33,316 bases of DNA from Bifidobacterium platyrrhinorum (GTDB lineage: Bacteria; Actinomycetota; Actinomycetes; Actinomycetales; Bifidobacteriaceae): assembly GCF_010667645.1 (NCBI RefSeq), contig NZ_WHZV01000001.1:45280-78595 (forward strand), written 5' to 3'. Position 1 is the first letter of the stretch. Each line of letters begins with the position of its first letter. Shown here piece by piece: positions 5,242-33,250 of this stretch. Below the pieces are notes generated by a model that was not told the DNA's origin, ran no database searches, and saw nothing but the letters and a program-made list of their open reading frames with translations. The position numbers and the translations under genes are program-made.

Positions 5242-5251
5242 ACATACGGTT

Positions 5252-5307
5252 GAACGCGAATGGGGACGGAATCGGGAATTCGCCTGATTCCGTCCCCATT
5301 CGCGTTC
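5252..5307. terminator. Strong hairpin between convergent operons
   Basis: A perfect 22-bp stem (5252-5273 with 5286-5307) lies 10 bases after the isomerase stop. It extends inward by further pairs. No U-tract follows on either strand. Its place between two convergent operons suggests bidirectional transcription termination or 3'-end protection. Confidence 0.7.
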
Positions 5308-5471
5308 GGTGCGCAGCCGACTCCCCGGATTGGTCGCACACCAAACACGCGAAAAATATGTATGGACCCCATTGTCCCATTCAGTTGTGAACATCACCCA
5401 TCGGTCGATGTCCGGTTCCCGTTTCGGCCGGAACGCGCCGTTGTGTGTTTCGCCTACGCGATGCCCGAGGT

Positions 5472-5597
5472 TCAGCGGGCGGTCTTGGTGTCGTTGACGA
5501 TGTCGACGAGCACCTGGGCGTTACGGGCGGAGGACTGGGCCATGGTGCTGGCACCGTACATGGCGAGACCGCGAAGCATGGAATCCTTGAACGACAT
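5472..5597 (-). CDS. Small paralogous protein, copy A (41 aa)
   Basis: A 41-residue ORF starts at ATG 5597 behind a purine-rich GGAAAGGAAA site and stops at 5472. It begins MSFKDSMLRGLAMYGA and ends LVDIVNDTKTAR. It has no cysteine, no Sec signal and no long hydrophobic stretch. Two short amphipathic helices (about 3-21 and 27-38) separated by a polar segment are plausible, with net charge near +2. It is the third and last copy in a minus-strand tandem array. I do not recognise the family. The case for translation rests on three paralogues with ribosome sites, equal length and conserved reading frame. Confidence 0.8.
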   Translation of the reverse strand: MSFKDSMLRGLAMYGASTMAQSSARNAQVLVDIVNDTKTAR

Positions 5598-5713
5598 GAT
5601 GATTTCCTTTCCTTGTCCGAAGGCCCTTCCGTTCGGGTTGTTGCGGGCTTCGGCTTGTGTTTCTGTATTCGGCTATCGGATGATGACCGTGCGGGTCATC
5701 GGGGGAGTGCGGC

Positions 5714-5839
5714 TCAGCGGCCGATCTTGTTGTCGTTGACGATGTCGGCGAGCACCTGGGCGTTGCCGTAACCGTTGCGGGACATGGCATCGGCGCCGAC
5801 CATGGCGAGACCGCGAAGCATGGAATCCTTGAACGACAT
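5714..5839 (-). CDS. Small paralogous protein, copy B (41 aa)
   Basis: This is the middle copy of the array, 41 residues from ATG 5839 with the same GGAAAGGAAA ribosome binding site as copy A. Residues 1-13 (MSFKDSMLRGLAM) are identical to the other copies; it then diverges to VGADAMSRNGYG and returns to the shared C-terminal pattern NAQVLADIVND, ending KIGR. Substitutions are concentrated in residues 14-26, while both ends are kept, which fits selection on a protein. The net charge is about +1. Function is unknown. The 116-base spacer to copy A contains an inverted repeat GATGACC/GGTCATC (5682-5700). Confidence 0.8.
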   Translation of the reverse strand: MSFKDSMLRGLAMVGADAMSRNGYGNAQVLADIVNDNKIGR

Positions 5840-5954
5840 GATGATTTCCTTTCCTTGCCCGAGATTCCGCTTCCTGCGGGCATCCCGGTGTTTTTTCGTT
5901 GCGTTATCGGGTGATGACCATTCCGGTCATCGAAGTCCTATCGTTTCAGCTGTT

Positions 5955-6083
5955 TCAGCGGGCGAGCTTGTTGGACTCGTTGACGAGGTCGGAGAGGACC
6001 TTCGCGCTGCCCATGGAGTGCTGGGCCATGGTGCTGGCGCCGTACATGGCGAGACCGCGAAGCATGGAATCCTTGAACGACAT
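5955..6083 (-). CDS. Small paralogous protein, copy C (42 aa)
   Basis: This is the promoter-proximal copy, 42 residues from ATG 6083 with GAAAGGAAA six bases upstream. The N-terminal 21 residues match copy A. The rest (QHSMGSAKVLSDLVNESNKLAR) is the most diverged, with conservative changes at the hydrophobic positions (V29, L30, L33, V34). It follows a promoter with an overlapping LacI-type operator (6140-6181), so expression is probably sugar-dependent. No processing, export or immunity gene is adjacent, and no cysteine or double-glycine cleavage site is visible. It could be a regulator, a membrane-surface peptide, or an amphipathic bacteriocin-like peptide; none of these is established. Confidence 0.82.
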   Translation of the reverse strand: MSFKDSMLRGLAMYGASTMAQHSMGSAKVLSDLVNESNKLAR

Positions 6084-6139
6084 GGTGTTTCCTTTCGTTG
6101 GTCAAAGCCGTGCTGGCTTTGATGTTTTCCGGTTCCTTT

Positions 6140-6181
6140 TGAAACCGGTTTCAGAATAGCGCGTCATGGCGATCCGTGCAA
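6140..6181 (-). promoter_or_regulatory. Promoter and overlapping LacI-type operator of the small-protein operon
   Basis: On the minus strand TTGCAC (6181-6176), a 17-base spacer and TATTCT (6158-6153) form a good sigma-70 promoter. The perfect 14-bp palindrome TGAAACCGGTTTCA (6140-6153) begins at the last base of the -10 and covers the start site. That is the classic position for LacI-family repression. Confidence 0.72.
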
Positions 6182-6241
6182 GAGGGGAAGGGGTGCATCG
6201 GCGTGTCGTGCGCCGTCGGCGAAACCGTTGCGGCAGTTGTC

Positions 6242-6269
6242 TCGAACCGGTTCGATGCAAACGTTGGCA
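6242..6269. promoter_or_regulatory. Two further palindromic sites upstream of the small-protein promoter
   Basis: TCGAACCGGTTCGA (6242-6255) is a perfect 14-bp palindrome with the same AACCGGTT core as the 6140 site, about 100 bases away. It is followed directly by the imperfect palindrome TGCAAACGTTGGCA (6256-6269). The paired spacing allows DNA looping by a tetrameric LacI-type protein (inference). Confidence 0.5.
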
Positions 6270-6321: not shown

Positions 6322-6360
6322 AAGCCCCCTGCCGATCGCGGATGGATCGGCAGGGGGCTT
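6322..6360 (-). terminator. Rho-independent terminator of the MFS gene
   Basis: A perfect 16-bp stem (6322-6337 with 6345-6360, 7-base loop) is followed on the minus strand by TTTT. It lies about 70 bases after the MFS stop. Confidence 0.85.
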
Positions 6361-6428: not shown

Positions 6429-7694
6429 TCAGTGGACCTTCCTGATGAAGAAGATGCAGATGGCGGCGCTGGTCAGGACGATGAAGCCCATCGGGAACAG
6501 GCCGGCGTAGCCGAACATCTTGATGACCCAGGCGGCCAGCAGCGGGGCGGCGAGGTTGCCCACCACGCCGCAGGAGTTGAGGAACGCGAGGTCCTTGGCG
6601 GCGTTCTCCGGATGCGGCAGCACGGTGGTCATGATCGCCTGGTCGAGCGAGCTGAACACGCCGGAGCCCAGCGAGGAGACGGCCACGTAGATCGTGTACA
6701 TCACGGGCGTGGGGACGAAGAACGGCAGCCAGCAGGGCAGGCCGACGAAGAAGATGGCCACGGCGAGCGGGATCTTCACGCTGCGGAACTTGTCGGAGAT
6801 CGGGCCCGCGATGATGCCGCAGCCCATCGCGGCGATCATGCCGAGCAGCGCCATGAAGCTCATCCACTGGCCGGCGGTGGCCTCGTCCTGGTGCATGTAG
6901 TCGGTCAGCGTGTAGAGGCGGTAGGTGCCGATGCCGCCGGGGACCATCCACAGGAAGCGGGCGAGCGCCGCCAGCCAGTAGTCGCGTCCGCCGTCCGCCG
7001 GCGGCAGGAAGTTGCGCAGCGCCTCGACGACGGTGAAGGAGGAACGCGGCACGTGCGTGTTGGACGGTTCGCGGCAGACCGCCACGGACAGCAGCGACAG
7101 CACGCCGCCGATGGCCAGCGAGATGATGACGCCCTTGGGGATGTTCGTGACGAACAGCGCGGCGACGACCTGGGCGCCCTGCAGCGCGGCCTGGTGGCCG
7201 ACGCCGTACATGGAGGACGCGGTGCCGCGCCAGCGCGGGGCGACCTGGTCGGGCTGCCATGCGCAGCCGGCCGCGAGCATCGCGTTGTAGATGGCGGCGT
7301 ACACCCACCAGCTGCCCAGCACCACCGGCACGCTGGAGGTGAACGCGAAGGTCAGCAACGCGATGGTGCCGAACACGACGCCTCCCACGATCCACGGGGT
7401 GCGCGAGCCGAAACGGGAGCGCGTCATGTCGGACAACGCGCCGCCCACGATGCCGGCGACGATGGAGATGATCATCGTCACCGTGGAGATGATGGCGACG
7501 AGCGCCACCTTGCCCTCCGGGTCGATCTGGGCGATCTTGGCGGGCAGCAGCACCGCGTTGACGGCCTGGCCGGCCCAGTACCAGCCGGCGCCGCCGAACA
7601 GCAGGCCGAGCCCCGCCTTCCATGGGAACTTCGGCTGGTCCTCGTCCTTGGGGGACGGGTGCGCGGCCGCGGCCGGCTGCACTGAATCCTTCAT
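6429..7694 (-). CDS. MFS sugar transporter (GPH/sucrose-symporter-like)
   Basis: This 421-residue integral membrane protein has about 12 hydrophobic segments. The loop SDMTRSRFGSRTPWIVGG after the second or third segment matches the D-x-x-R-x-R-x-G-R-R-x-P-W signature of glycoside-pentoside-hexuronide and sucrose symporters in the major facilitator superfamily. GPISDKFRSVKIP is the equivalent loop of the second half. ATG 7694 has AAGGAG eight bases upstream. It is a single-gene unit with its own promoter, operator (7784-7797) and terminator. Shared operator sequence with the glycerate kinase and dehydrogenase operons suggests it imports the substrate of those enzymes. Substrate specificity cannot be read from sequence. 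Confidence 0.9.
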   Translation of the reverse strand: MKDSVQPAAAAHPSPKDEDQPKFPWKAGLGLLFGGAGWYWAGQAVNAVLLPAKIAQIDPEGKVALVAIISTVTMIISIVAGIVGGALSDMTRSRFGSRTPWIVGGVVFGTIALLTFAFTSSVPVVLGSWWVYAAIYNAMLAAGCAWQPDQVAPRWRGTASSMYGVGHQAALQGAQVVAALFVTNIPKGVIISLAIGGVLSLLSVAVCREPSNTHVPRSSFTVVEALRNFLPPADGGRDYWLAALARFLWMVPGGIGTYRLYTLTDYMHQDEATAGQWMSFMALLGMIAAMGCGIIAGPISDKFRSVKIPLAVAIFFVGLPCWLPFFVPTPVMYTIYVAVSSLGSGVFSSLDQAIMTTVLPHPENAAKDLAFLNSCGVVGNLAAPLLAAWVIKMFGYAGLFPMGFIVLTSAAICIFFIRKVH

Positions 7695-26433: not shown

Positions 26434-27201
26434 ATGCTTTTCGACGCCATCCACGACGCCATGAACATCAGCCCCGCCGTAACCTCGGCCGCCTCCGCCG
26501 CGATCGCGGCCGAACCCGTCTGCCCGACCGGCGACGGCGGGCTCATCCAGGTCATCACCGACTGGCTCGTCTCCCTCATGGAGACGGTCGGCGGCCTCGG
26601 CGTGGCCCTCGCCATCGCCCTCGAATCGATCTTCCCGCCGATCCCCTCCGAGGTGATCCTGCCGTTGGCCGGCTTCACCGCCTCGCGCGGCACGCTGAAC
26701 CTCGTCGAGGCGATCGTCTGGGCGACCGTCGGCTCCCTCATCGGCGCATGGGCGCTGTACGGCGTCTCACGATGGGTGGGCCTGCGCCGCATCCACAAGG
26801 CGGCGGACGTCATCCCCGGCGTGAGCCGCAAGGACGTGAACAAGGCGAACGACTGGTTCACCCGCTACGGCACGTGGAGCGTGCTCATAGGCCGCGTGAT
26901 CCCCGTGGTCCGTTCGCTCATCTCCATCCCCGCCGGATTCAACCGCATGGACTTCCTCCACTTCACCGGCTGGACCCTGCTCGGCTCGGCCGTGTGGAAC
27001 ACGGTCCTCGTCTCCGCCGGCTATTTCCTCGGCGCGGGCTGGTGCTCGATCCTCGGGGTCCTCAACGTGTTCGAGGACGTGGTCGTCGTCGCCTTCATCG
27101 TGGTCATCGCCGTGTTCGCCGCGCGCAAGATACGTACAGTGGTGCGTGGCCGCAACGCACGGCGCAACGACGGAGACGACGCAACGGAAGGTGACGCATG
27201 A
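26434..27201 (+). CDS. DedA-family membrane protein
   Basis: This 255-residue DedA (VTT/SNARE-associated) protein has the conserved reentrant-loop motif ESIFPPIPSE (64-73) and GRVIPVVRSLISIPAG (153-168), which contains the family arginine. Members are undecaprenyl-phosphate or phospholipid flippases that depend on membrane potential. At least four hydrophobic segments are visible. The last codons overlap the arc start (ATGA), so it is co-translated with the Pup-system ATPase. Confidence 0.9.
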   Translation: MLFDAIHDAMNISPAVTSAASAAIAAEPVCPTGDGGLIQVITDWLVSLMETVGGLGVALAIALESIFPPIPSEVILPLAGFTASRGTLNLVEAIVWATVGSLIGAWALYGVSRWVGLRRIHKAADVIPGVSRKDVNKANDWFTRYGTWSVLIGRVIPVVRSLISIPAGFNRMDFLHFTGWTLLGSAVWNTVLVSAGYFLGAGWCSILGVLNVFEDVVVVAFIVVIAVFAARKIRTVVRGRNARRNDGDDATEGDA

Positions 27202-28760
27202 GCGAAGGACACGAGGGGGACGGCCGGCCCGCCGAGGACCTGGCGGCATTGAACGACCGGCTCATGGCGAAGAACCATGCGCTCGCCGAGGCGCTCAACC
27301 GCGCCGGCAAGGAGCTGACCAAGGCGAAATCGCAATTGGCGCAGCTCGCCCAGCCGCCGCTCACCTTCGCCACGATGGTGAAGGTCGATGCGGTGCGCAC
27401 CGACGAGCTGGGCGTGCGGCACGCCAACGCCGAGATCATCGCCGGCTCCCGCCGCATGATCGTGCCCGTCGCCTCGAACCTCAACCCCGAGCGCCTCGCT
27501 GCCGGGCGCACCGTCGTGCTCAACGAGGCGATGGTGCTCGTCGAACAGCGCGACCACGACGCCGTCGGCATGGTGCGCACCGTCGACGAGACCCTCGACG
27601 ACGGCCGCCTCGTCATCCGCGACGCCGGGGGCAACGCCGCCGTCGCCCGCCGCGCCAGCGCGCTCGCCTCCGCGGCGCTCGAACGCGGCGACCGCGTCAT
27701 CGTCGAGGCGTCCGGCCGCCTCGTCATCGCGGCCCTGCCGAAGAAGGACGACGCCGACCTCGTCCTCGAGGAGACGCCCGACGTCTCCTTCGCCGACATC
27801 GGCGGCCTCGACCGGCAGATCGAACGCATCCGCGACGCCGTCCAACTGCCGTTCCGGCACCGCGGGCTGTTCGCGCGCTACGACCTCGCCGCGCCCAAGG
27901 GCGTGCTCCTGTACGGCCCTCCCGGCAACGGCAAGACGCTCATCGCCAAGGCCGTCGCCCACGCGCTCGCCGAAGGCGCGGACGGCACCGGCCGCGGCGT
28001 GTTCCTGTCCGTCAAGGGGCCGGAGCTGCTCAACAAGTTCGTCGGCGAATCGGAACGCCTCATCCGCCTCATCTTCCGCCGCGCGCGCGAACGCGCCGCC
28101 GACGGCCGCCCGGTCATCGTGTTCATCGACGAGATGGACTCGCTGCTGCGCACGCGCGGCTCCGGCGTCTCCTCCGACGTGGAGACCACCATCGTGCCGC
28201 AGTTCCTCGCCGAACTCGACGGCGTCGAATCGCTCGGCAACGTGATGGTGATCGGCGCCTCCAACCGCGTCGACATGATCGACCCGGCCGTGCTGCGCCC
28301 GGGCCGCCTCGACGTGAAGATCCGCATCGACCGGCCGGACGGCGAGGCCGCCGTCGCCATCGTGCGCCACTACCTGACCGACGACCTGCCGCTCGAGGAG
28401 GGCCTCGACGCGGACGCGCTCGCCCGCGTGCTCGTGCGCGACATCTACACGCGTTCCGCACGGCGCCACCTCGCCGACGTGCGCGACGAGCACGGCACGT
28501 GGAACGCGCTGTTCCTCGCCGACGTCACGAGCGGCGCGAGCCTCAAGAACATCGTGGACCGCGCGAAGACGCTCGCCGTCAAGGCGTCGATCGAACGCGG
28601 CGGCGACGTGGCGATCGGCGTCGACCTGCTCGCGAAGGCCGTCGAGGACGAATTCGCCGAGACACGCGACTCGCTGCTCGACGCCGACCCCGTGCAGTGG
28701 AGCCGCGTCAACGGCTTCGACGCCGGGGCCGTCACCGCGATCCGCGGCGTGGAACACTGA
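27198..28760 (+). CDS. arc: AAA ATPase ARC/Mpa of the Pup system, no proteasome-docking tail
   Basis: This 520-residue ring-forming ATPase unfolds pupylated proteins. Its N-terminal coiled coil (about 12-50), which binds Pup in relatives, is followed by OB domains (about 55-190) and an AAA module: Walker A GPPGNGKT (240-247), Walker B VIVFIDE (306-312), a pore loop with F281-V-G, and R367/R370 in VLRPGRLD. The C-terminus ends AIRGVEH. In Mycobacterium the last residues (GQYL type) dock into the 20S proteasome; that motif is missing. ARC here probably unfolds or disassembles targets without a proteasome, as proposed for corynebacteria. Translationally coupled to dedA. Confidence 0.92.
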   Translation: MSEGHEGDGRPAEDLAALNDRLMAKNHALAEALNRAGKELTKAKSQLAQLAQPPLTFATMVKVDAVRTDELGVRHANAEIIAGSRRMIVPVASNLNPERLAAGRTVVLNEAMVLVEQRDHDAVGMVRTVDETLDDGRLVIRDAGGNAAVARRASALASAALERGDRVIVEASGRLVIAALPKKDDADLVLEETPDVSFADIGGLDRQIERIRDAVQLPFRHRGLFARYDLAAPKGVLLYGPPGNGKTLIAKAVAHALAEGADGTGRGVFLSVKGPELLNKFVGESERLIRLIFRRARERAADGRPVIVFIDEMDSLLRTRGSGVSSDVETTIVPQFLAELDGVESLGNVMVIGASNRVDMIDPAVLRPGRLDVKIRIDRPDGEAAVAIVRHYLTDDLPLEEGLDADALARVLVRDIYTRSARRHLADVRDEHGTWNALFLADVTSGASLKNIVDRAKTLAVKASIERGGDVAIGVDLLAKAVEDEFAETRDSLLDADPVQWSRVNGFDAGAVTAIRGVEH

Positions 28761-28806
28761 CGATATGCGCAAGGCATCGAACGCAGGAACCGGGAGGGGA
28801 ACGGGC

Positions 28807-30477
28807 ATGAGCGTGAAACGAGTGATGGGCACGGAGACCGAATACGCGGTGTCGCAGCCGGGCGTCGCCTACTACCAGCCGGTCAAGCTGAGTTTCGACG
28901 TGGTCGGCGCCGCGGCCGACGAGGCCACGCGGCACATCCGCTGGGACTACCGGCAGGAGGACCCGGTCAACGACGCGCGCGGCACCAGGCTCGACCGCGC
29001 CGCCGCCCGCCCCGACATGCTCACCGACGCGCCCCAGCTCAACATCACCAACGTGATCGCCCCCAACGGCGGCCGCATCTACGTGGACCACGCGCACCCC
29101 GAATACTCCGCGCCCGAAACCACCGACCCGTTCCAGGCCCTCGCCTACGACCACGCCGGCGACCGGCTCATGCTCGCCGCCGCCCAAGCCGCCAGCGCCA
29201 CCGACCCCGAACTCAAGGCGTCCGGCCGACCGGTCGTGCTCCACCGCAACAACGTGGACGGCAAAGGCGCCAGCTGGGGCACGCACGAGAACTACATGAT
29301 GCGCCGCGACGTGCCGTTCGCGGACGTGGCCGCGCTCATGACCGCGCACTTCGTCTCCCGCCAGATCTGGGCCGGCTCCGGCCGGGTCGGCATCGGCGAG
29401 GCGAGCGAACAGGCCGGATTCCAATTGAGCCAGCGCGCCGACACGATCCACGCGAAGATCGGCCTGCAGACCACGTTCGACCGCCCCATCATCAACACGC
29501 GCGACGAATCCCATTCCACCGGCGAATTCCGCCGCCTGCACGTGATCGTCGGCGACGCGAACCGCATGGACGTGCCCCAGGTGTTGAAACTCGGCGTCAC
29601 CTCCATGCTCCTGTGGACGCTCGAACACGCGCAAGAGGCCGGCTACGACCTCGACGCGCTGCTCGGCTCCCTCCGACTCGCCGACCCGGTCGAGGCGATG
29701 CACACCGTCTCCCACGACCTGACGCTCGCCGCCGCGCTGCCGCTCGAAACCGGCGGCGCCACCACCGCATGGCTCATGCAGGTGGCCCTGCGCCGCGCCG
29801 TCTACGAGGTGGCCGCCGCCACGCTCGGCACCGACACGAAGGGCGAACCCGCATGGGAGGACCGCGAGACCCGCAACGTCATGGCCATGTGGGGGCAGGC
29901 GCTCGCCGACACCGCCGCCATCCGCCACGCCGACGACGATGCACGCCTCGCGATGAAGGTGGAAGGCGCCCGCGTCGAATGGCTCCTCAAATGGCAGCTG
30001 CTCGAGAAGCTGCGCCGCAAGACGGGCGCCTCCTGGGCGGACCCGCGCCTCGCCGCCGTCGACCTCTCATGGGCGGCGCTCGACCCCGCGAAATCCGTGT
30101 TCGCGAAACTCGTCGCCGCGGGCGGCGTCGAACGCCTCGTCGACGACGACGCGCTCGCGCACGCCGCCCAAAACCCGCCCGAGACGACGCGCGCCTGGCT
30201 GCGCGCCGCGCTCGTGCGCACGTTCCCCTCCGACGTGGTCGCCGCCAGCTGGTCGCACCTGACCGTGCGCGTCCCGCGGTCGGACGACGGCATGCCCGAC
30301 ACGTACGGCAATGCGTCACCGGCCGAGGCGACGAGCGTGCGCCCCGGCGACCTGGTGAGCCTCGACATGTCCGATCCGCTCGCGTTCCGTAAGGAGAACG
30401 TCGAGACCGCGGTGGCCGAGGCCTCCGACTCCGCCGCGCTCCTCGAACGGCTGTCGCTGGAACGGCGCGCCGCCTGA
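28807..30477 (+). CDS. dop: Depupylase/deamidase Dop
   Basis: This 556-residue glutamine-synthetase-like carboxylate-amine ligase-fold enzyme begins VKRVMGTETEYAV and keeps the catalytic aspartate (D94) in IYVDHAHPEYSAPE. The insert at about 40-75 (TRHIRWDYRQEDPVNDARG in part) corresponds to the Dop loop that separates it from PafA. In mycobacteria Dop deamidates Pup-GGQ and removes Pup from targets. The local Pup already ends in Glu, so only depupylation should be needed. ATG 28807 has GGGAGGGG upstream. It is 46 bases after arc in the same operon. Confidence 0.94.
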   Translation: MSVKRVMGTETEYAVSQPGVAYYQPVKLSFDVVGAAADEATRHIRWDYRQEDPVNDARGTRLDRAAARPDMLTDAPQLNITNVIAPNGGRIYVDHAHPEYSAPETTDPFQALAYDHAGDRLMLAAAQAASATDPELKASGRPVVLHRNNVDGKGASWGTHENYMMRRDVPFADVAALMTAHFVSRQIWAGSGRVGIGEASEQAGFQLSQRADTIHAKIGLQTTFDRPIINTRDESHSTGEFRRLHVIVGDANRMDVPQVLKLGVTSMLLWTLEHAQEAGYDLDALLGSLRLADPVEAMHTVSHDLTLAAALPLETGGATTAWLMQVALRRAVYEVAAATLGTDTKGEPAWEDRETRNVMAMWGQALADTAAIRHADDDARLAMKVEGARVEWLLKWQLLEKLRRKTGASWADPRLAAVDLSWAALDPAKSVFAKLVAAGGVERLVDDDALAHAAQNPPETTRAWLRAALVRTFPSDVVAASWSHLTVRVPRSDDGMPDTYGNASPAEATSVRPGDLVSLDMSDPLAFRKENVETAVAEASDSAALLERLSLERRAA

Positions 30478-30518
30478 CCGGGCGAATCAAGCGTTTCGTG
30501 GAGGCCGGGCGGGACCGC

Positions 30519-30555
30519 GCGACAAAACCCTCCCGTCCCGATACCATGGGTGCTT
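30519..30555 (+). promoter_or_regulatory. Possible promoter of the IMPase-like gene (leaderless)
   Basis: GCGACA (30519-30524), 17 bases and TACCAT (30542-30547) end 8 bases before ATG 30556, and no Shine-Dalgarno is seen. The arrangement resembles priA. Confidence 0.4.
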
Positions 30556-31413
30556 ATGGCACAACAGGAGAATCTGCGCGACCTCGCGATGAAGGTCGCC
30601 GACATCGCAATGGCAGCCGGCAAGCACGCGCTGCAGGACCAGATGGCCCCGCACGACATGCTCATCTCGCGCGAGAACCCCGGCGAACAGTTCAACGTGG
30701 AGGTCGACGGCCGCCTGCTGCGGTACATGTCCGGCCGTCTGGCGGACATGGAGCATTTCGACGGCTTCTGGCAGACCCGCCCCTCCACGTCGCGCCCGGG
30801 CCAGCGCTACTGGTGCGTCGGCAAGCTCGACGGCGCCATCAACTACATCCGCAACATGAGCGAATGGGCGGTCACCGTGTCCCTGTTCGAATTCAACGAG
30901 GAGGGGTCCGCCCAGCCGATCCTCGGCGTCGTGCACGCGCCGGCGATGGGCGAGACGTACCTCGCCGCGAAGGGCCAGGGCGCGGTGCGCATCCGCAACA
31001 CGCCCGTCGGCGAACGCCGTGAGAAGGTCGTGCCGTCCATGACCTCCACGCTCGACGGTTCGGTGGTGAGCTTCGGCATGTCCTACGTGCCGGGCGAGGC
31101 CGACCGCGCGCTGCAGACCGTCGCCTCGCTGTCGGCCGGCCGCCCAGCCGACGTCAAGCGTGTGGGTCCGGCGTCGCTCGACCTGTGCAAGGTGGCCGAC
31201 GGCACCTACGACGCGTACTTCGAGCCGATGCTGCATTACTGGGACGTGCCGGCCATCTCCGCGGCCGCCGTGGTCGTGTGGGAGGCGCAGGGCACGCTGC
31301 ACCGCTGGAACGGCGGCGCCATCCATTGGCGTCAGGACAACGACGTGGTGTGCACGAACGGTCTCATCGACCGCGACCTCAAGCAGTACCTCATCCAGCG
31401 CGACGACGACTGA
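30556..31413 (+). CDS. Degenerate inositol-monophosphatase-family protein
   Basis: This 285-residue protein has the fold pattern of the inositol monophosphatase/fructose-1,6-bisphosphatase superfamily. Motif A, normally WxVDPLDGTxNF, reads WCVGKLDGAINYI (86-98): the first metal-binding Asp is Gly 89 and the catalytic Thr is Ala 94. D92 and N96 remain. Motif B is kept (W229-D230 in HYWDVPAISAA). The upstream Glu-Glu site cannot be identified with confidence. It may be a weak or inactive phosphatase. It sits between dop and pup, 78 bases after dop. A link to pupylation is inference. Confidence 0.8.
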   Translation: MAQQENLRDLAMKVADIAMAAGKHALQDQMAPHDMLISRENPGEQFNVEVDGRLLRYMSGRLADMEHFDGFWQTRPSTSRPGQRYWCVGKLDGAINYIRNMSEWAVTVSLFEFNEEGSAQPILGVVHAPAMGETYLAAKGQGAVRIRNTPVGERREKVVPSMTSTLDGSVVSFGMSYVPGEADRALQTVASLSAGRPADVKRVGPASLDLCKVADGTYDAYFEPMLHYWDVPAISAAAVVVWEAQGTLHRWNGGAIHWRQDNDVVCTNGLIDRDLKQYLIQRDDD

Positions 31414-31453
31414 CGCGCGGCGCGGCCATCGGACGCGAATGGCCGCATGGCGG

Positions 31454-31479
31454 GCCCCGGGACCGGCTCCCGGGGCTTT
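31454..31479 (+). terminator. Terminator between the IMPase-like gene and pup
   Basis: GCCCCGGGA (31454-31462) pairs with TCCCGGGGC (31468-31476), followed by TTT. It separates pup-pafA from the upstream transcript. Confidence 0.7.
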
Positions 31480-31481
31480 CG

Positions 31482-31508
31482 CGTATCGTGACGTATCGTA
31501 GACGTATC
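31482..31508. repeat. Three CGTATC repeats upstream of pup
   Basis: CGTATC occurs at 31482, 31492 and 31503, spaced 10 and 11 bases, one helical turn each, about 70 bases before the pup start. Confidence 0.6.
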
Positions 31509-31577
31509 ACAGGAGCCGGCGGCCATGGGACATGCGGATGGTCCGGGCCCGTCGGCCACATACCACAGGGAGGCATC

Positions 31578-31775
31578 ATGCCGCAGCAGTTCGCACAGGC
31601 GGGCGGGTCACAGCAGGAACGGCCGCAGGACGCGGCGCAGGAGAACCAGGGCGGTCAGACGCGTTCGGACGTGGAGTTCGACGCGCTTGACGCGGTGCTC
31701 GACGACATCGAATCCACGTTGGAGACCAACGCCGAGGAATACGTGAAGAGCTTCGTGCAAAAAGGCGGCGAGTGA
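31578..31775 (+). CDS. pup: Prokaryotic ubiquitin-like protein Pup, ending in GGE
   Basis: This 65-residue protein is largely disordered with a C-terminal helical region (about 30-55, DVEFDALDAVLDDIEST) that binds the ARC coiled coil in relatives. It ends SFVQKGGE. PafA couples the C-terminal Glu to a lysine of the target; because the gene already encodes Glu rather than Gln, no deamidation is needed. ATG 31578 has GGGAGG upstream. The stop overlaps the pafA start (TGATG). No proteasome genes lie between pup and pafA. Confidence 0.97.
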   Translation: MPQQFAQAGGSQQERPQDAAQENQGGQTRSDVEFDALDAVLDDIESTLETNAEEYVKSFVQKGGE

Positions 31776-33250
31776 TGCCACAGCTGCGCGACAGCGGCAC
31801 GCGCGCCGCCCATGAGGCGGGCGCCACGCCGGCCGCGGAACTCGACGGCTTCGGCCGCATCTTCGGCGTGGAGACCGAATACGGTGTCTCCGTCACCGGG
31901 GCCGACCGCCCCGTGGACGCCGGGCAGGTGGCGATGACCATGTTCCGCCCGGTCGTCTCCCGCGCCCGGTCCACGAACACGTATCTGGACAACGGTTCGC
32001 GCCTCTACCTCGACGTCGGCTCGCACCCCGAGTACGCGACCGCCGAGGCGCGCGACCCGATGGACGCGCTCGCCCAGGACGCGGCCGGCGAACGCGTGAT
32101 GGCGTCGCTCGCCGCCGACGCGCAGTCGAAACTGCGCGCATCCCATGGCGAGGGGGCCGTCATCCACGTGTTCAAGAACAACGTGGATTCCGCGGGCCAC
32201 GCGTTCGGATGCCATGAGAACTACCTCGTGCGCCGGTTCGTGCCCTTGGAGACCATCGAGAGGCAGCTGCTGCCGTTCCTCATCACCCGCCAGCTCTACA
32301 CGGGGGCGGGGCGGTTCACGCCGGACGGTTTCCAGATCACGCAGCGCGCCGACTTCCTCGACGAGGCCGTATCATCCGCCACCACACGTTCGCGCCCGAT
32401 GGTCAACACGCGCGACGAGCCGCACGCCGACCCCGAGTCCTTCCGCCGCCTGCACGTGATCATCGGCGACTCCAACCGGTCGCAGTGGGCCACGTGGATG
32501 AAGCTCGCCGTCACGCACCTCGTGCTGTGCGTGATCGAGGACGCCGTGCGGCATGGGCGTCCCAGCGGATTCGAGGATCTTGCGTTCGCCGACCCGGCGG
32601 CCGCGAACCGGGCGGTGAGCCGCTGGCTGGGACCGGGGGAGCGCGGCGCGTCGGACGGCGCCGGGGCGGACCCCGCGGGCACGCCCGATCCGCTGTCGAT
32701 GCAGCGACGCTACCTCGATGTCGTCGAGGCGTTCGTGCGCGAACGCCATGACGACATCGACGCGTCCCTGCCGAAGACCGGTGTCGACGACGTGATCGCC
32801 TCGTGGCGGTGGGCGTTGGACGCGTTGGAACGGCGCGATTTCGCCGCATTGTCCACGCGCGTGGACTGGGCGGCGAAACACTGCCTCGCCGAGGCGTTGC
32901 GCCGCCGCCGTCCGGACACGGACCTCGCACGGCTCGAACAATTGGAACTCGACTACCATGACGTGGCCAACGGACGGCTGTACGCCTCGCTCGTGGCCCA
33001 TGGACGGCTCGGCGAACCGTTGGACGCGGCGACGGTGGCCGCCGCGAAGCACGAGCCTCCCTCGGACACGCGCGCGGCCCTGCGCGGCGCGTTCGTGCGG
33101 CGTGCGCTCGACACGGGGGCGCAGTTCTCCTGCGACTGGACCACGATGGTTGTCTCCTCGCCGGTGCGCCGCGAAGCGGTCCTGCTCGACCCGTTCTCCT
33201 GCGAGCCCACGGAACAGTACCGCGCCCTCATGGATTCGATGCGGGCGTAG
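31775..33250 (+). CDS. pafA: Pup ligase PafA
   Basis: This 491-residue ligase forms an isopeptide bond between the Pup C-terminal Glu and lysines of target proteins using ATP. IFGVETEYGVS (29-39) supplies the metal-binding glutamates. YLDNGSRLYLDVGSHPEY (70-87) holds the catalytic Asp, D80, and lacks the Dop loop. There are about 25 extra N-terminal residues before the GVETEYG segment compared with mycobacterial PafA. ATG 31775 overlaps the pup stop; an in-frame GTG at 31772 is possible. Coupling with pup implies balanced synthesis. Confidence 0.95.
   Translation: MPQLRDSGTRAAHEAGATPAAELDGFGRIFGVETEYGVSVTGADRPVDAGQVAMTMFRPVVSRARSTNTYLDNGSRLYLDVGSHPEYATAEARDPMDALAQDAAGERVMASLAADAQSKLRASHGEGAVIHVFKNNVDSAGHAFGCHENYLVRRFVPLETIERQLLPFLITRQLYTGAGRFTPDGFQITQRADFLDEAVSSATTRSRPMVNTRDEPHADPESFRRLHVIIGDSNRSQWATWMKLAVTHLVLCVIEDAVRHGRPSGFEDLAFADPAAANRAVSRWLGPGERGASDGAGADPAGTPDPLSMQRRYLDVVEAFVRERHDDIDASLPKTGVDDVIASWRWALDALERRDFAALSTRVDWAAKHCLAEALRRRRPDTDLARLEQLELDYHDVANGRLYASLVAHGRLGEPLDAATVAAAKHEPPSDTRAALRGAFVRRALDTGAQFSCDWTTMVVSSPVRREAVLLDPFSCEPTEQYRALMDSMRA

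Follow-up and report, generated by a model that had tools for sequence, protein, structure and literature searches.

Three small-protein genes arranged in tandem in Bifidobacterium platyrrhinorum very probably belong to one dedicated LacI regulon of small proteins, in which the repressor is predicted to bind a palindromic operator at the array promoter. We regard this regulon as well supported because the LacI gene, its operator and the small proteins of the array type (group I) co-occur in the genus, and because LacI and peptide agree in all the supported independent pairs of a tree. Control of the array by a sugar is plausible, and by analogy with SgrT of E. coli the proteins are likely to be intracellular effectors linked to sugar state. 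The array lies in a stretch of 33,316 nucleotides, called the window here, to which all plain coordinates refer.

Group I denotes the present array with its near relatives. Group Ib comprises the multi-subtype arrays of vansinderenii-callimiconis-simiarum-primatium type species, and group II consists mostly of single genes, such as that at G000:C3:15079-15201 in this genome. Group III is made up of MTNKNIFGDILNYCADNMFPESIAREKMAESARRHGNR, from this genome, and the corresponding ORF of G097.

Architecture of the array

The genes lie on the minus strand and encode small proteins A (42 residues, promoter-proximal; 5955-6083), B (41 residues; 5714-5839) and C (41 residues; 5472-5597). A purine-rich ribosome site precedes each ATG on that strand, AAAGGA for A (6090-6095) and AAGGAAAGGAAA for both B (5845-5856) and C (5603-5614). 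The copies are a tandem duplication with a unit of 242-244 bp; residues 1-13 are common to all three proteins, 21 residues are common to A and C, and the motif VLxD[IL]VN is present in each. The three ORFs, their own ribosome sites, the shared first 13 residues and the VLxDhVN pattern had been described in the original prediction, and each of these details was confirmed on the sequence.

Repeat analysis located several inverted repeats around the genes, given here without strand. Between A and B is the hairpin GATGACC-N5-GGTCATC (5913-5931) and between B and C a second one (5682-5700); the 7-bp stem GATGACC/GGTCATC is kept, the loop varies, and the stem may serve to process or protect the RNA. 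Between the array and a neighbouring MFS permease gene (6429-7694, minus strand; assigned as an ORF with a profile match and treated here as context) lies a perfect inverted repeat of 16 bp (6322-6360). This repeat likely ends the MFS transcript, which would make the array a transcription unit of its own. Beyond the last copy, C, a long near-perfect hairpin (5250-5309) in the gap between a sugar isomerase gene and the array is probably a terminator shared by the two; Rfam gave miRNA-like matches to this hairpin, all of them sub-threshold.

Promoter and operators

Upstream of A, on the minus strand, the −35 hexamer TTGCAC (6181-6176) and the −10 hexamer TATTCT (6158-6153) are separated by 17 bases. 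The predicted operator O1, the perfect palindrome TGAAACCGGTTTCA (6140-6153), overlaps the −10 hexamer by one base and lies over the expected transcription start, and the predicted operator O2, TCGAACCGGTTCGA (6242-6255), has its centre 102 bp from that of O1. The earlier description of a promoter overlapped by a perfect palindrome, with a second palindrome about 100 bases upstream, is thus accurate. A strict sigma-70 scan did not have TTGCAC-17-TATTCT among its listed promoters. Promoter and operator overlap in all 23 group I upstream regions examined, from which the hexamers and O2 were also read.

O2 is present in 15 of the 23 regions, at an O1-O2 spacing of 101-104 bp in every one of the 15, and absent from eight. 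Its position is kept in the window and in L033, loci where LacI is not adjacent. Since the O1-O2 distance is fixed, the arrangement suggests DNA looping between the two sites. An ACGCCG element in the gap between O2 and the −35 hexamer (6199-6204, minus strand) is conserved in 21 of the 23 regions.

Co-occurrence of LacI and group I

LacI-type regulation had been proposed from the palindromes, and a matching LacI gene was found outside the window: the ortholog in this genome (G000:C5:10037-11068; 74% identical to the L036 protein) lies on a contig other than that of the array. Among 112 genomes of the genus, group I occurs in 23 (E<1e-15), a LacI at least 67% identical to the one at G000:C5 is found in exactly these 23, and all 23 carry the operator form TGAAA[C/T]CGGTTTCA. 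By match coordinates, LacI and array lie next to each other in divergent orientation in 19 of the 23, with 226-560 bp between them; the gap is 1.8 kb in G044 and 22 kb in G017, and in G000 (this genome) and G097 LacI is on another contig. Among the 15 named group I loci, 12 show the divergent arrangement. Their outer flanks differ: some have metK-rpoZ, others the gene of a DUF6198 membrane protein, and others an ABC exporter accompanied by a TetR-like gene. At G070:C8:151203-152234 the LacI match by the array has one in-frame TAG, the array and operator looking intact.

Because related genomes could share peptide and LacI by descent, we made a proxy tree from a conserved exporter-gene segment of 38 genomes (G015 and G044 not among them), a one-gene tree and not a species tree. 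On it, a single clade of peptide-bearing genomes was rejected (p-AU 2.5e-8), the peptide trait changes at least six times on supported branches, and LacI and peptide agree in six of six supported independent pairs (sign test p 0.031). LacI was scored as present only at 67% identity or more, so its list is identical to the peptide list; counting the 49-53% homologues of four genomes without group I (G009, G051, G054 and G111) as present breaks the match in those four.

The related LacI of these four genomes (L160-L174) is located close to TGAAAnCGnTTTCA sites before GH88-family, GlcNAc-epimerase-family, SDR and MFS genes, and before genes that we take by eye to be GH43-like. The set looks like a plant-glycan regulon, possibly for glucuronoxylan. 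With homologues at 49-53% identity and sites of the same type at glycan-type genes, the peptide-linked LacI is most likely a descendant or a sister of such a plant-glycan regulator.

Operator sites across genomes

In this genome TGAAANCGNTTTCA occurs twice, once before the array (O1) and once before the group III ORF, which encodes 38 residues ending in Arg and has a ribosome site and a promoter TTGCAA-17-TATCAT. The 23 group I genomes hold 30 TGAAAnCGnTTTCA sites, of which 24 lie just before group I arrays, two before group III ORFs and two (G016:C27, G017:C7) before no such ORF, the remaining two falling outside the check for small ORFs. That check, which left out G003:C17, G055:C12 and G078, gave, downstream of the G016:C27, G017:C7, G030 and G033 sites, no small ORF that ends in Arg and has a ribosome site. 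The operator is not exclusive to group I, since 21 of the 89 genomes lacking group I also have a TGAAAnCGnTTTCA site, six of them with the exact TGAAACCGGTTTCA. The genome-wide search took exact 14-mers only, and weaker or O2-type sites could add targets.

Ahead of their fifth subtype, seven of seven Ib loci carry the same operator; in the five with matched promoter hexamers it sits between the hexamers. The main Ib array has another, highly conserved upstream stretch, TTGCGCCAGCGCTTGCGCA, at L048:5480-5550 and its counterparts in L049-L055, followed by AATTGCGCAGG in five of the eight shown; this distinct stretch suggests a second regulator. In B. vansinderenii, TTGTGAGCGCTAACA (L048:4362-4376) lies near the start of the first Ib gene and resembles the AraQ/MalR1 site discussed below. 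A tiny ORF preceded by a purine-rich site, MTFTERASIVDNVHNRR in L110 (7864-7917) and with a counterpart in L111, lies downstream of tRNA-like sequences and just before the adolescentis/dentium-type group II genes, and could be a leader ORF.

The small-protein groups

Copy A searched against 5.8 billion proteins gave 11 matches, two of them the window's own and one a homologue from other Bifidobacterium at E 1.1e-15; a 40-row profile gave 57 matches in the same collection. All matches with an organism name are from Bifidobacterium and annotated as hypothetical, many others carrying no name. The 24 named loci come from species such as B. stellenboschense, B. aesculapii, B. callitrichos, B. rousetti, B. 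saguini and B. vansinderenii. A search of 396 genomes of the order yielded, outside the genus, two borderline matches alone (E 0.006-0.008), one with an internal stop, which we take as chance. Copy A has no match at E<=1 among phage records (50,697) or plasmid records (72,556), and a phage or plasmid origin was rejected.

The family had been called undescribed. This holds for Pfam and NCBIfam, which return nothing at E<=10 for A, B or C; PHROGs gives weak matches alone (E >= 0.0035), to families of unknown function, and among the best matches in the open-access literature (titles and abstract starts, a scope with few subscription papers) none is about these proteins.

Homologues with a conserved frame were found in 23 of 112 genomes, as the original prediction had anticipated for genuine genes. 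A dN/dS near 1 had been named as evidence against them; the orthologs depart from it, their pN/pS, pooled from 12 pairs, being 0.41 (0 to 1.26 for single pairs), whereas the three window paralogs among themselves reach 0.88, 1.26 and 1.35, with 4.5-4.7 synonymous and 14.3-20.5 non-synonymous changes per copy pair. That the array ORFs are real protein-coding genes, their frame conserved across Bifidobacterium, is well supported by these comparisons.

Group II is present in 17 of the 112 genomes (below 1e-14), and two of its proteins, P0072 and P0076, have B. adolescentis as source name, which places a related single-copy group in that species. Profile comparison of groups I and II gave a probability of 48% (P 2e-4); 78% (P 2e-5) was obtained for I/Ib against III taken together with its look-alikes from Ib. 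Because this support between groups is weak, we speak of possibly related groups and not of one proven family. In group Ib, the same subtype across species has a mean identity of 72% (n=52) and different subtypes within one species 40% (n=49), which indicates that the subtypes are kept apart. Two loci of B. miconisargentati with one gene each (L043 and L044), 8 kb from one another, encode identical proteins; the L044 gene immediately follows an MFS gene, an arrangement also seen in the window.

The groups share a C-terminal Arg. One family profile was built with an Arg filter, and the claim therefore rests on unfiltered counts: terminal Arg is found in 81 of 81 group I, Ib and II ORFs of the loci (no Arg filter, located with profiles of Arg-ending rows), in all 56 visible proteins among the 57 profile matches, and in 26 of the 29 group II proteins read out of 50, P0064, P0103 and P0105 ending otherwise. 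As background, 97 of 344 ORFs of 36-45 residues in the named loci, members included, end in Arg. The near-invariant Arg, together with the CGC-TGA codons that specify the end, is a sharp oddity of these genes.

An amphipathic helix had been considered possible. The hydrophobic moment lends it weak support, being on average 0.8 sd above shuffles; the AlphaFold model of group I, one helix over residues 3-41, is of low confidence (mean pLDDT 70, pTM 0.28). Group II is modelled as two helices (pLDDT 68), and both models are too weak for the folds to be ranked.

Gene neighbourhoods

Permease genes recur near two of the other groups. A type of MFS gene whose only Pfam match is MFS_1, and which we label polyol-type because a zinc alcohol dehydrogenase gene is often alongside, lies within about 6 kb on either side in nine of ten group II loci (L071-L080) and six of nine Ib loci. 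It was found near none of 16 group I, nine adolescentis-type group II and two group III loci, and in none of 20 control stretches (170 kb), chosen around LacI or operator sites and not at random. The MFS gene beside the present array is of another type and is weak evidence for a link, as it recurs in four of 15 other group I loci and in four of the 20 control stretches; a permease as the target of the group I proteins is a guess.

The original prediction had found no export, modification or immunity gene nearby. None was recognised among the window neighbours, part of which were profile-searched, and the claim stands to that extent. At 27198-33250 the window has AAA ATPase, Dop-like, Pup-like and PafA-like genes in succession, which is presumably a pupylation locus.

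Proposed mechanism

We propose that a dedicated LacI repressor, encoded elsewhere in the genome, would bind O1, bridge O1 and O2 where both exist, and keep RNA polymerase off the array promoter until a sugar or sugar phosphate releases it. Repression at O1 with help from O2, and release by a sugar, are likely. One short mRNA would then give several helical proteins at once, in which the N-terminal half they have in common would recognise one partner and the diverged, Arg-ending C-terminal half would set the target. After the model of SgrT in E. coli, this target may be a permease or an enzyme for sugar, and not an outside target; it is the least certain step. The intracellular reading is favoured because no stretch of transmembrane length was seen (the highest 19-residue hydropathy in 44 sequences is 1.16) and no co-travelling export, maturation or immunity gene was recognised. 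Its connection with sugar is favoured because the regulator comes from a line of sugar regulators and two other groups lie near permeases. The chain as a whole, from sugar cue through LacI switch to intracellular proteins that act on the uptake or use of sugars, is put forward tentatively, as a possibility to which we give somewhat less than even weight.

If it is true, the array would stand under a regulator of the sugar type, both exact sites of which in this one genome precede small proteins alone. One LacI deletion should then switch on the whole set, which offers a ready genetic handle. To our knowledge the small proteins of bifidobacteria are little charted, sugar use being the chief topic of study. 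A wider scheme, which we think doubtful, would make these proteins a Bifidobacterium-wide class of 38-44 residue microproteins with an Arg-CGC-UGA end, one branch of which captured a plant-sugar LacI as a private switch and so answers sugar with a burst of helpers that directly retune permeases or enzymes. Under that scheme the array would be a sugar operon without enzymes, with small effectors as its sole output.

Alternative functions

The main rival is that the proteins are secreted leaderless peptides, antibacterial, host-acting or signalling, made as paralog sets on sugar and exported by a general ABC exporter, for example of the FtsX/MacB type. Tandem diverging paralogs of 38-44 residues with a constant N-terminus are usual for secreted leaderless peptides, and the array fits this pattern; the near-neutral divergence of the window paralogs would suit diversification against targets. 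In this genome LacI adjoins an FtsX/MacB-type ABC exporter and a gene that we recognise by eye as TetR-like, and exporter parts are present in seven of the 15 named group I loci. Such neighbourhoods suggested a dedicated exporter as a partner. The exporter is found in 55 of the 112 genomes at E<=1e-60, however; G044, which has the peptide, gives no such match, and in G015 the frame is just 249 codons long. The exporter is thus not obligatory. No immunity gene was recognised among the neighbours looked at, and the Ib subtypes are conserved across species, both of which speak against secretion.

The composition of the proteins also argues against it. The 44 sequences have a mean net charge of +1.5 (range -1 to 3) and a mean GRAVY of -0.17, no Trp, and Cys in three, whereas the aureocin A53-like leaderless bacteriocins average +4.63 and +0.16 (PMC11580447). 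The two sets are alike in being short and without a leader, and a cluster reported in the same paper includes a LacI gene (PMC11580447). An aureocin-like identity was rejected on this mismatch of charge, hydrophobicity and Trp content, the linked exporter moreover not being obligatory. Overall we consider secretion unlikely, yet the strongest competitor to intracellular sugar-linked effectors.

The proteins could instead be oligomer or scaffold subunits, several subtypes from one mRNA assembling into a structure. The vansinderenii-type group, with several subtypes at one locus and each of them maintained from species to species, would accord with this; 12 of the 23 group I genomes, on the other hand, show a single copy at E<1e-15, and no structure is predicted. 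We judge such an assembly improbable.

Translation itself could be the point, the CGC-UGA end causing a regulated ribosome pause or termination and the ORFs being sensing peptides. Of 76 distinct members, 73 end in the codons CGC-TGA; CGC is used at the terminal Arg in 69 of 70 cases as against 57 of 70 at a conserved internal Arg (McNemar p 0.0018, kinship ignored), and TGA is the stop in only 42 of 73 neighbouring control genes (kinship likewise ignored). Selection acts on the whole protein and not on the end alone, however, and the 3' gene of the array precedes no same-strand gene that it might control, only a hairpin and a convergent gene, which leaves this explanation with very little probability. 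Equally far-fetched are RiPP precursors with a conserved leader, a variable core and a modifying enzyme encoded elsewhere: codons 1-13 do not differ between the three window copies and the remainder has diverged, as such precursors would have it, but Cys is as scarce as noted above, the last residue is fixed and not variable, and no modification enzyme was recognised near the array or among the annotated recurrent neighbours, many small clusters lying outside that annotation.

Comparison with known systems

Staphylococcal PSM-beta and SLUSH-type peptides are tandem leaderless paralogs of about 43 residues. By this description they resemble the array, but they belong to another phylum, are more hydrophobic and are not known to have an invariant C-terminal Arg.

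SgrT, which acts on the glucose permease PtsG, is the model for intracellular sugar-linked effectors. It has about 40 residues and no leader and is made in answer to sugar state, as is predicted for the array. Compared by description, the array proteins are of similar length, likewise lack a leader and, among the neighbours annotated, any recognised modification gene, and have no hydrophobic stretch long enough to cross a membrane. SgrT is made from a dual-function RNA, whereas the array consists of tandem genes predicted to be under LacI control, and we know of no sequence similarity between the two.

On the regulatory side, AraQ and MalR1 are global LacI regulators of Bifidobacterium, which control central metabolism through the site TGTGAGCGCTCACA (PMC6882875, PMC4746261). 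They are like the predicted array regulator in being LacI-type with a palindromic operator. As regulators of the array itself they were rejected, since their published site differs from the TGAAACCGGTTTCA at the array promoter. The array regulator, by comparison, goes with TGAAACCGGTTTCA, whose two exact sites in this genome both stand before small Arg-ending ORFs.
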